Assembly (NCBI GenBank): GCA_029210545.1 | Contig: JARGFV010000035.1 | Coordinates: forward strand, 1 to 22,423 | Source: a bacterium | GTDB taxonomy: Bacteria > BMS3Abin14 | Length of the DNA: 22,423 nt | Reading direction: 5' to 3' | In this document: one piece after another, positions 18,258 to 22,423 of the stretch | How the letters are laid out: the number at the start of each line of letters is the position of its first letter | How positions within the stretch are numbered: position 1 is the stretch's first letter | Notes under the pieces: model-generated | What the model was told of the DNA's origin: nothing | The model's input: the letters and a program-made list of their open reading frames with translations, nothing else | Database searches by the model: none | Translations under genes and position numbers: made by a program

Positions 18258-18344
18258 TGACAGGGTCGCAAAAAGTCCAGGCGGAACTTTTCCTGGCTCA
18301 TTAATGTCCTGGGGAAAGGGAATAGCGTCGTTTTCCCTTTCCTC
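18258..18344 (+). repeat. Two-hairpin repeat, copy 1
   Basis: Starts with the family core CAGGGTCGCAAAAAGTCC (18261-18278). The first hairpin is decayed (AAAAGT.. with ..ACTTTT). The second is GGAAAGGGAATA (18313-18324) / TTTTCCCTTTCC (18331-18342), 11 of 12 pairs, with the conserved loop GCGTCG. A short extra segment between the hairpins is flanked by CCTGG on both sides. On the guaB transcript this copy lies antisense within the leader. Confidence 0.75.
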
Positions 18345-18364
18345 ACAAAGACTGCTGCAATATC

Positions 18365-18423
18365 GCCAAAGTCCGGGTAGGACTTTGGCTTAACGGGAAC
18401 CGAAAAGCGTGGTTTTCTGTTCC
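18365..18423 (+). repeat. Two-hairpin repeat, copy 2 (divergent)
   Basis: Stem 1 is GCCAAAGTCC (18365-18374) / GGACTTTGGC (18380-18389), perfect over 10 bp but with CC/GG where other copies have AA/TT. Stem 2 is GGAACCGAAAA (18396-18406) / TTTTCTGTTCC (18413-18423), 10 of 11 pairs, loop GCGTGG. The primary sequence has drifted while both stems are kept. Confidence 0.65.
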
Positions 18424-18530
18424 GCTTCACTTTGTATCGACCCGCTTGTAAGACTGGCGGAGGAACCTCTCCCGACAAGTGCCGCTTCCGGAGATTGTCC
18501 GCTCAGCTGACTTGCCGGGTTAGTTGATCG

Positions 18531-18559
18531 AAACTAATAGGTAGGGGGTGAAGTGTCAA
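18531..18559 (-). promoter_or_regulatory. Possible guaB promoter
   Basis: On the minus strand a perfect -35 TTGACA (18554-18559) stands 17 bp from TAGTTT (18531-18536), a poor -10 with 3 of 6 matches. If used, guaB has a leader of about 330 nt that includes two antisense copies of the hairpin repeat. Confidence 0.4.
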
Positions 18560-18563
18560 GGAG

Positions 18564-18593
18564 GTTCCTCCCGAACGGCGGTTCGGGAGGAAC
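18564..18593. repeat. Perfect 13 bp GC-rich hairpin
   Basis: GTTCCTCCCGAAC (18564-18576), loop GGCG, GTTCGGGAGGAAC (18581-18593). It lies just upstream of the possible guaB -35 on that strand. No T run follows on either strand, so it is not a typical intrinsic terminator. It could be an operator or a structured 3' end. Confidence 0.7.
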
Positions 18594-18598
18594 AGTTT

Positions 18599-18610
18599 AC
18601 TGTTAACAGT
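18599..18610. promoter_or_regulatory. 12 bp perfect palindrome, operator-like
   Basis: ACTGTTAACAGT reads the same on both strands. It sits 6 bp beyond the 13 bp hairpin, between the divergent guaB and phosphoketolase genes, as a dimeric regulator's site might. No regulator is recognised. Confidence 0.35.
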
Positions 18611-19081: not shown

Positions 19082-19122
19082 ACACCAGAACCCTTTCCCG
19101 GGAAACGTGATCCAGGACCACT

Positions 19123-19128
19123 AGGAGG
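19123..19128 (+). promoter_or_regulatory. Phosphoketolase ribosome binding site
   Basis: AGGAGG, 8 bases before the ATG at 19137. Strong site that fixes the start. Confidence 0.85.
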
Positions 19129-19136
19129 CCTTTGCC

Positions 19137-21515
19137 ATGACGTCGTCACTCCGATCCCTGACAGAAGAGCAGCTTGCACAGGTGGACGCTTACTGGAGGG
19201 CGGCCAACTACCTTTCCGTAGGCCAGATCTACCTGTACGCCAATCCCCTGCTGAAAGAGCCCCTTTCCCGCGACCACATCAAACCCCGTCTCCTGGGGCA
19301 CTGGGGCACCACGCCGGGGCTCAATTTCATCTACGCCCATCTCAACAGGGTCATACGGCAGCGCGACCTGAACATGATCTATATCACAGGTCCTGGCCAC
19401 GGGGGGCCCGCCCTTGTCGCCAATACCTGGCTCGAGGGGATATACACCGAGACGTACCCTGACGTCAGCCGGGACGAGGAGGGCATGAAGAAACTGTTCA
19501 CCCAGTTCTCCTTCCCCGGCGGCATCCCCAGCCATGTTTCCCCGGAAGTGCCGGGCTCCATCCACGAAGGAGGCGAGCTCGGTTATTCCCTTTCCCACGC
19601 CTTCGGGGCGGTGTTCGACAACCCGGACCTCATCGCCGCCTGTGTCGTGGGTGACGGGGAAGCGGAGACGGGCCCCCTGGCGGCGGCGTGGCACTCCAAC
19701 AAGTTCCTGAACCCCGCCCGGGACGGCACGGTGCTCCCCATCCTTCACCTCAACGGCTACAAGATCGCCAACCCGGCGATCCTTGCGCGGATGAAAAGAA
19801 CCGAGCTTCAAAGCCTCATGGAAGGGTACGGCTACAGGCCGTTTTTCGTGGAGGGGGACGAACCCCGGATCATGCACAGTCTCATGGCCGAGACCCTGGA
19901 CCGTGTCTTTGACGAGATCCGGGACATCAGGGAAAAAGCCGCAACGCCCGGTCCGGGGGACCTTCCGCCATGGCCCATGGTCATTCTCAGGACGCCCAAG
20001 GGCTGGACCGGTCCCGGGGAAGTGGACGGTGTCAGGATCGAGGGCACGTGGCGCTCCCACCAGGTCCCCCTTTCCGGCCTTCAGCAGGACCCGGAGCACG
20101 TCAGGATGCTTGAAAGGTGGATGAAGAGCTACCGTCCGGAGGAACTGTTCGACGGGAAGGGCGCTCCCGTGGAAGCCGTCACGCAGTGGGCTCCGTCCGG
20201 GCCGCGAAGGATGGGAGCCAACCCCCATGCCAACGGCGGGCAGCTTCTGAAGGACCTGCGGCTGCCGGACTACCGGAAATACGCCGTGGCTGTGCCCCTG
20301 CCCGGGCAGACCACCGCACAGGACACCAGGGTCCTCGGGCGCTACCTCCGGGATGTGATGAAAAACAACGCCGGGCAGCGTAATTTCAGGGTCTTCGGCC
20401 CCGACGAGACCGCCTCGAACCGGTTGGACGCCCTTTACGAAGTGACCGGCAAGGCCTGGATGGAGGAAATCCTCGAGGTGGACGAAAACCTCTCACCGGA
20501 CGGGCGCGTCATGGAGATCCTCAGCGAGCACACCTGCCAGGGGTGGCTCGAAGGGTACCTCCTCACCGGCAGGCACGGTCTTTTCTCCTGCTACGAGGCC
20601 TTTATCCACATCATCGACTCCATGTTCAACCAGCACGCCAAGTGGCTGAAAACCGCCAGCCGTGAGATCCCCTGGAGAAGGCCTGTCGCCTCCCTGAACT
20701 ATCTCCTCACCTCCCACGTCTGGAGACAGGACCACAACGGGTTCAGCCACCAGGACCCCGGCTTCATCGACCATGTCGTCAACAAAAAGGCCGACGTCAT
20801 ACGGGTTTACTTCCCCCCCGATGCCAACTCCCTCCTCTGCGTGGCCGACCAGTGCCTGCGAAGCCGTGATTTCGTGAACGTCATCGTGGCGGGAAAACAG
20901 GATCACCCCCAATGGATGGATATGGAAGCGGCCATCGAGCACTGCAGCGCTGGACTCGGCATATGGGAGTGGGCAAGCAGCGACAAGGGGGCGGAACCGG
21001 ACGTGGTCATGGCCTGCTGCGGAGACGTACCGGCCCTGGAGACCCTTGCGGCGGTTCAGCTGCTCAGGGAGCATGCCCCCGGCCTCCGGATCAGGGTCGT
21101 AAACGTCGTGGATCTCATGACCCTGCAGCCGGAGGAGGAACATCCCCACGGACTTTCAGACAGGGATTTCGACACGATCTTTACCACTGACAGGCCCATC
21201 ATCTTCGCCTACCACGGCTACCCATGGCTCATCCATCGCCTCACCTACCGGAGGACCAACCACCGGAACCTTCACGTCCGTGGGTACAAGGAGGAAGGTT
21301 CGACCACGACCCCCTTCGACATGGCGGTCCTGAACGACATCGATCGCTTTCATCTGATGGCGGACGTGGCCGACCGGGTCGCCGGGCTTTCCCACCAAGC
21401 CGCGTACATCAAGCAGTTCGTCCACGGCAAACATGTCGAGCACCGGGAGTACATCTACAGGGAGGGCCAGGACCTCCCCGAGATCAGGGAGTGGAAGTGG
21501 ACAGGGGAAATTTGA
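19137..21515 (+). CDS. xfp: Xylulose-5-phosphate/fructose-6-phosphate phosphoketolase
   Basis: Thiamine-diphosphate enzyme that cleaves xylulose-5-P (and often fructose-6-P) with phosphate to acetyl-phosphate plus glyceraldehyde-3-P (or erythrose-4-P). The 792 residues are the full family length. Motifs in order: [15 protein letters not shown] (about 85-99), [20 protein letters not shown] (about 136-155), the ThDP/Mg motif [19 protein letters not shown] (about 171-189), [31 protein letters not shown] and [11 protein letters not shown], with the C-terminal domain intact. Which sugar phosphate it prefers cannot be read. It is transcribed alone, away from guaB, and converges on a pseudogene 2 bp after its stop with no terminator visible between. 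No acetate kinase or phosphotransacetylase gene is in the window. Erythrose-4-P released from fructose-6-P is a substrate of the AroF encoded nearby, but a functional link is speculative. Confidence 0.96.
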
Positions 21516-21517
21516 AT

Positions 21518-22003
21518 TTATTCTTCTGATATCACCGTTCGGTTGCGTCCGTTTTGTTTCGCCTTGTACATGGCCGCATCGGCTAATCGGATCAAGTGGT
21601 CAAGACTGCGCTCGGGAATGAACTCCGCGATCCCGATGGAAACGGTCACCGACACCGCCGTCTCCGATCCTGCAGGCAGGAACGGAACCGCTTCAAACCT
21701 GGTGCGCAGGCGCTCAGCCGGGACCAGTGCGCAATTTGCGGAGGTGTCCGGCAGGATAATGGCAAGGTTCCGCAACTCATCCTCCATCTTCCTCATATCA
21801 GTGATGTCCTGAAAAAAGCCGATGACCCCGGATTCCTCCCCGTCCTCTAAAAGAAGCGTGCAGCTGATGCGGATGGGCAGGTCGCGTCCGTTCCTGTCCC
21901 GCACAAACGTCTCGTAGCCCACCAGCCCGCCCGGACCCCCCTAAGCGTCGGAAAGGATCTGGTCGATGACGGCAAACAGGGACTCCATGGAAATAACGCT
22001 CAT
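21518..22003 (-). pseudogene. Decayed PAS-GGDEF regulator (diguanylate cyclase remnant)
   Basis: The minus-strand frame from 22003 reads MSVISMESLFAVIDQILSDA, then an amber stop at 21941-21943, then continues in the same frame as GGPGGLVGYETFVRDRNG to the stop at 21518. The middle is the C-terminal part of a PAS domain with its PAC motif (GFFQDITDMRKMEDEL). In intact relatives a full GGDEF domain should follow. Here ELRNLA is joined directly to IILPDTSANCALVPAERL, which normally comes just after the GGDEF/GGEEF signature. About 90-100 residues including the catalytic loop are thus missing, while the domain's end (VSIGIAEF, ADAAMYKAKQNGRNR) remains. The PAS N-terminus is also absent. The protein could not make c-di-GMP. 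A 134-residue product from the GTG at 21922 is possible but unlikely to be functional. Confidence 0.8.
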
Positions 22004-22347
22004 TTGCGTATAATATCAGAAACTCACGCCTGAGCCGTCACCCGTTTCCAGGTCAGGCGGCATCGGATCCGATAATTTGCCTCGCGCGCGGCGTGGACAC
22101 CCGACAGACTACCTGATCGACTCGGTTAAGCTGATATTCCCGGTCCGCCCCTGGTTATCCGCAACCTGCTTTTATTCACATGCCGCATACCATAGTGTGC
22201 ATACTTGCCTACGATAGTGTGCAGTAACCGAACATATAATCCGGACAGCGCTATCCTTGTTATGTGTTATTTTCCTTTAATATCAACTTATTGGGCCATT
22301 TTCGCAACCTGCTCTACATTGTGTACGGATTTTGCAATGATTATTAT
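22004..22347. other. Non-coding region right of the pseudogene
   Basis: 344 bp with no supported gene and visibly more AT in its right half than the coding DNA. It contains a 10 bp direct repeat ATAGTGTGCA at 22192-22201 and 22214-22223 (22 bp apart), and GCAACCTGCT twice (22161-22170, 22304-22313). The missing 5' part of the PAS-GGDEF gene is not recognisable here. Confidence 0.5.
22192..22223. promoter_or_regulatory. Direct repeat ATAGTGTGCA x2, operator-like
   Basis: Two identical 10-mers with start-to-start spacing of 22 bp, about two helical turns, in an AT-leaning non-coding stretch. Such geometry suits a protein binding the same DNA face twice. There is no adjacent intact gene to assign it to. 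Confidence 0.3.
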
Positions 22348-22423
22348 TGACAGGGTCGCAAAAAGTCCAATCCGGGACTTTTCGCTCCACGGAAAGGGAA
22401 AAGCGTCGTTTTCCCTTTCCTTA
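22348..22423 (+). repeat. Two-hairpin repeat, copy 5 (reaches window end)
   Basis: Core CAGGGTCGCAAAAAGTCC (22351-22368). Stem 1 is AAAAGTCC / GGACTTTT with an altered loop. Stem 2 is GGAAAGGGAAAA (22391-22402), loop GCGTCG, TTTTCCCTTTCC (22409-22420), perfect over 12 bp. Same orientation as the copies on the other side of the phosphoketolase gene, ~3.3 kb away. Confidence 0.8.

Follow-up and report, generated by a model that had tools for sequence, protein, structure and literature searches.

The window analysed here, a 22,423-nucleotide stretch of the bacterium BMS3Abin14, is the whole of contig C35 (JARGFV010000035.1) of a 2.72-Mb draft genome (G000, GCA_029210545.1), and it carries several copies of a dispersed, hairpin-forming repeat. 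We consider it highly probable that this repeat is a gene-less miniature inverted-repeat transposable element (MITE) of ~155 bp, moved in trans by a DDE-type transposase with duplication of a 6-bp AANNTT target, its likely source being an IS1182-like insertion sequence (IS). The element has inverted ends, inserts exactly with a 6-bp duplication at a preferred target, is dispersed between genes and spread across its phylum, shares its ends with an IS and is built of covarying hairpins.

A first-pass annotation, made from the letters of the window alone, had described the repeat as a two-hairpin family with paired changes in its stems, resembling repetitive extragenic palindromic (REP) elements moved by TnpA-REP (REP-associated tyrosine transposases, RAYT), and had named a structured RNA part as another option. 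This reading holds in part: the repeat is dispersed beyond the locus and mobile, its stems covary and a RAYT gene is present in the genome, while the proposed mobiliser and mechanism do not stand.

Ends, insertion and dispersal of the element

The two-hairpin unit is real, and it is not the whole element, as the window copy starting at 18894 extends to 19042, through further hairpins to an inverted right end. The unit forms the left half of a longer structure with five hairpins in total. When left ends were paired with inverted ends, lengths of 153–155 bp were commonest, followed by 166–167, 175 and 188 bp, with additional short forms of 45–46 bp. The left end reads GA(T/C)AGGGTCGCAAAAAGTCC and the right end GATGGACTCGCAAAAAGTCC or GATGACTTCGCAAAAAGTCA; hairpin 5, which forms the right end, occurs as either of two versions, both perfectly paired (GATGGACT/AGTCCATC and GATGACTT/AAGTCATC). 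As is typical of MITEs, the 46–188 bp forms carry terminal inverted repeats, are smaller than 600 bp and have no transposase gene. The sequence of the 46-bp form is the one that would be left if everything between the GGACTTTTTGC in the right arm of hairpin 1 and the GGACTTTTTGC of the right end were deleted, and several of these forms retain a perfect target duplication; we infer that forms of 22 and 46 bp are produced in place, by deletions running from one GGACTTTTTGC arm to the other. Head-to-tail tandem copies were seen in the window (18894/19047) and at loci L004, L012 and L015.

Target duplications and gene context were assessed in the window, 40 stretches of its own genome (~0.55 Mb) and 20 short stretches of three relatives. 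Within the genome, 21 of 54 paired elements were flanked by an exact 6-bp duplication when the right end was picked among candidates for the best duplication (mean 1.2 and at most 7 in 2000 shuffles of the flanks), and 22 of 52 showed six or seven matching bases when the nearest right end was taken without such picking. The same duplication accompanied 6 of 16 paired elements in other genera (shuffled mean 0.64, maximum 4). Its length is 6 bp, since 7 bp gave two cases and other lengths tested gave none, and its consensus is AANNTT. Two insertions could also be compared with empty counterparts in paralogous sequence from within G000: L006:8183-8370, inserted at AACTTT relative to L045 (flanks 97.5% identical over 160 bp), and L039:7116-7281, inserted at AAACTT relative to L007 (84%). 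Both filled sites equal the empty site plus the element and one additional copy of the 6-mer. Staggered-cut duplication of this sort is the mark of a DDE transposase, and the 6-bp duplication and exact empty sites therefore point to a MITE made by a DDE-type enzyme. Acting in trans, such a transposase would bind the element ends, excise or copy the element and insert it at AANNTT, those six bases being duplicated in the process.

The core of the repeat matched the genome 223 times at two mismatches or fewer (120 forward, 103 reverse; none for a reversed control pattern), and G000 holds some 200 copies of the element. A covariance model of the two-hairpin unit had hits in 11 of 12 genomes from this small phylum, with at least 150 matches in three of them. 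The repeat is thus dispersed, as had been proposed, and not a local duplication. No match was obtained in plasmids and phages, nor for an exact 44-nt pattern across the genome contig collection.

Predicted coding sequence, called with a simple codon-usage gene finder, covered 12% of 38 full elements compared with 82% for random placements, an intergenic bias that fits selfish insertions purged from genes. The arrangement of neighbouring genes was near background (20 tandem, 8 divergent and 3 convergent, against 163, 34 and 29), and full elements in their own-genome gene context showed no clear preference of orientation or position relative to genes. Contigs of G000 often end within ~100 bases of a copy (e.g. 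C2, C13, C19, C25, C33, C41, C47, C100 and C154, and the window itself at 22349-22423) because the repeat breaks assembly, so that the element explains many breaks in this draft, whose contigs end inside copies.

Candidate mobilisers

An IS at L006:759-2425 encodes a 520-aa transposase with DUF772 and DDE_Tnp_1 domains and has the ends GATGGACCCGCAATTAGTC and GACGGCATCGCAAAAAGTATC. Its transposase matched NF033551 (IS1182) best, at 116 bits, and a fragment from G011 reached 132 bits; neither attained the cut-off of 270 bits, both proteins being incomplete, and for this reason we use the label 'IS1182-like' only. The end motif GA(T/C)GGNNTCGCAAAAAGT is common to this IS and the element in the same register, so that the element shares its ends with an IS of autonomous type, found here in damaged copies. 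Relatives in two other genera end in GACGGACTCGCAAAAAGTATC (L049, G001) and GATGGCTTCGCAAAAAGTATC (L084, G011), and the L084 end GATGGCTTCGCAAAAAGT is identical at 18/18 bases to the first 18 of the MITE right ends. The IS flanks are AANNTT-like at L006 (AACCTT and AATATT), L049 (AATAAT) and L084 (AACCTT), and unlike AANNTT at L050 (isolate SZUA-204). The other DUF772 transposase loci that were examined in the phylum all lacked such ends around the gene. Judged from sequence, the IS1182-like family would be the mobiliser of the element, a link that appears strong on ends and incomplete on activity.

Several observations weigh against this explanation. As many as 24 of the 54 paired elements have two or more mismatches in the duplication, for which age, tandem arrays and mis-paired ends are likely reasons. 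Every IS copy found is damaged. Set against L050, that of G000 is missing the segment around GVEATMSYLNRKTGVKRLRVRG, a catalytic-E segment retained in the frameshifted copy of G011, and that of G001 is truncated. No relative of P0001 was detectable in G002 and G005-G010, i.e. in most element-bearing genomes, and among the IS copies found none had both ends together with its own 6-bp duplication. Finally, a distant relative on a Microvirga plasmid (transposase 36% identical), whose inner inverted repeats GACGGGGCGGTAAAAAGT speak for the link, has flanks that suggest longer ends and a 9-bp duplication.

The lack of intact copies of the matching IS, and the presence of its relatives in only three of 12 genomes, would also be expected if the MITE were moved by a different DDE transposase whose own IS is absent from the assemblies. 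IS1634-type transposases, a family that makes 5–6 bp duplications, are present as well. We regard such a mover as unlikely given the end motif shared in register with the IS1182-like IS, the 18/18 identity at one end, the AANNTT-like flanks and the DUF772 survey described above. One IS1634-family transposase gene (L043:1291-2207, contig C154) is interrupted by a MITE copy, its reading frame staying open across the junction; considered as a source, this gene proved to be a target of the element and not a shown source.

A search for a RAYT gene, suggested in the first-pass annotation, did return one, on contig C150 (NF047646, 84.1 bits; cut-off 80). With an element copy lying ~0.8 kb upstream of this gene and stems that covary, the copies could be viewed as repeats of REP/BIME type whose folded single strands are mobilised by the Y1 transposase (RAYT) of this genome, an account that we consider highly improbable. 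Y1 (HUH) transposition makes no target duplication, whereas the element has inverted ends, 6-bp target duplications and exact empty sites, and the duplications already contradict RAYT mobilisation; even the copy upstream of the RAYT gene has an ordinary target duplication, AATGTT. The gene is flanked by inverted repeats of its own (AACCCCKGTGTCAGAG upstream, CTCTGACACCGGG downstream), which consist of tandem AACCCC(T/G)GTGTCAGAG units at L003:1676-1775 and 2709-2752, inverted between the two sides, and the upstream unit has exact genome matches at the RAYT locus only. REP sequences are defined by a GT[AG]G tetranucleotide at the hairpin foot (PMC6006769, PMC8266576), which is absent from the element alignments on both strands by direct reading. 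Other RAYT-like loci from relatives (L072-L082) had no element copy within 1.5 kb; two RAYT-like genes occur in G003, which lacks the element, and no RAYT accompanies the many copies in G005 and G011. The presence of RAYT does not track the element, and mobilisation by RAYT is not supported.

Covariation of the hairpins

A full copy folds into a chain of five hairpins at -53.2 kcal/mol, compared with -19.8 for shuffled sequences (z = -11.7). In a two-hairpin alignment of 51 distinct copies from four genomes, 95.3% of cells were paired, and 14 of 24 pairs showed changes on both sides (shuffled mean 4.0, standard deviation 0.9, none of 500 as high). Kinship of copies inflates covariation scores; slid registers, which retain that kinship, gave at most four double-changed pairs compared with 14 in the true register. 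The paired stem changes noticed between the window copies are therefore genuine, exceeding all 500 shuffles and the slid registers. Hairpins 3 and 4 covary too: across hairpins 1 to 4, both sides have changed in 11 of 43 pairs, where 5.2 would be expected.

Stable hairpins with compensatory changes are also what a dispersed RNA structure kept for its function in transcripts, be it a terminator, a leader or a small RNA, would display. We find this option very hard to sustain, and it gains nothing from Rfam, where neither the window nor three loci had a match, or from mismatch asymmetry. Departures from pairing, counted as kinds per pair, were G.T in eight cases and A.C in eight, and with these equally frequent neither strand looks selected as RNA. 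Gene context, lacking a clear orientation or position bias, left a terminator or leader role unsupported, and the full element has no terminator-like site.

The upkeep of the hairpins may have its reason in a DNA-level function, in protection or in palindrome-correcting mutation. A purely mutational origin, in which template switching perfects palindromes in place of structural selection, is a serious possibility, if somewhat short of an even chance, and is compatible with a MITE. It agrees with the absence of a strand-specific wobble bias and with changes spread across all hairpins, including those that take no part in the ends. Less easily accommodated is the loop-closing pair 56-60, which goes from C-G to T-A in relatives with its flanking pairs fixed. 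A functional role of the five covarying hairpins within the element, e.g. as hairpin-shaped transposase sites or fold-backs that time or protect transposition, seems improbable to us; were it so, folded DNA would be needed along the whole body of a DDE-type transposon. The maintenance of its hairpins is what makes this element unusual.

Copies in the window and comparison with known systems

All five same-orientation copies reported for the window were recovered on the plus strand at 18259, 18365, 18894, 19047 and 22349, within one base of where they had been placed. Four of the five form the two adjacent hairpins and that at 19047 forms one (DNA fold z-scores -3.0 to -6.3). The middle pair of stem 2 is indeed C-G at 18894 and G-C at 18259 and 22349. 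The reported replacement of AA/TT by CC/GG in stem 1 of the 18365 copy was not borne out: there, one A-T pair has become C-G and one pair is lost, the arms being GCCAAAGTCC...GGACTTTGGC against GCAAAAAGTCC...GGACTTTTTGC in the core.

The complete element of the window, at 18894..19042 (149 bp, 99 bits), consists of the left terminal repeat TACAGGGTCGCAAAAAGTCC, the hairpin chain and the right end GATGACTTTTGAAAAGCCATC. Its left terminal inverted repeat spans 18894..18913 (plus strand) and its right one, imperfect and reading GATGGCTTTTCAAAAGTCATC inwards, spans 19022..19042 (minus strand). The left target 6-mer AAACTT (18888..18893, plus strand) is AANNTT-compatible; the right flank, AACTGA, does not match it because the next copy abuts, a truncated left end with hairpin 1 only (19047..19084) that stands head-to-tail with the complete element. 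The copy at 18259..18345 is the truncated left half of a long-form element; compared with the 167-bp copy at L006:586-752, it has the left terminal repeat, hairpin 1, the extra insert of the 167-bp form and hairpin 2, and its right end is absent downstream. The copy at 18365..18423 is a two-hairpin relative that has diverged and lacks the terminal GA(T/C)AGGGTCGC; it is probably an old remnant of a related subfamily. The last copy, 22349..22423 (98.7 bits), is a left half cut short by the end of the contig, where the assembly breaks within the repeat.

Other features were observed nearby. A separate hairpin at 18699-18730 (CAACGTGTCGGTAAAGTCCGACACGTTG) is like GCAGCGTGTCAGGGTTTTCCGACACGCTGC at L045:2069-2099, in the second dispersed repeat that supplied an empty site. 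Palindromes of the form TCACGCC...GGCGTGA occur at 18790-18820 of the window and at L043:945-990, the latter within GTCATTGCGAGGAGTCACGCC...GTGGCAATC, a repeat of a different type. Upstream of the last element, at 22185-22223, GC(A/C)TAC(C/G)ATAGTGTGCA is present twice, 22 bases apart. On the minus strand at 21518-21960, a 134-aa frame reads by eye as a PAS/GGDEF-like gene fragment with its upstream part disrupted, perhaps what is left of a diguanylate cyclase gene.

A text search of open papers for the end sequence returned unrelated papers only. On the basis of this search and Rfam, ISfinder not included, the MITE family is apparently undescribed, though of a known kind. Bacterial IS-derived MITEs such as QMITE2 of Coxiella burnetii and MITEAba12 of Acinetobacter are likewise short and gene-less, with inverted ends, target duplications, mostly intergenic positions and strong folding (PMC10969869; PMC5896051, PMC6382973). 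The present element differs from these in its ends, in its AANNTT target of 6 bp and in a body composed of five separate hairpins that covary, and it was found here only within one small phylum; a MITE family of high copy number is thereby defined across a little-studied group of bacteria, together with the IS that is its likely source. The matching IS resembles the IS1182 family in its DUF772 and DDE_Tnp_1 transposase (best match NF033551). With REP, BIME and REPIN sequences and their RAYTs, the element has in common high copy number, intergenic location and palindromic units; it differs from them in lacking the GT[AG]G foot, in having target duplications and inverted ends, and in being unlinked to RAYT, so that covarying dispersed hairpins in a RAYT-bearing genome need not be REPs.

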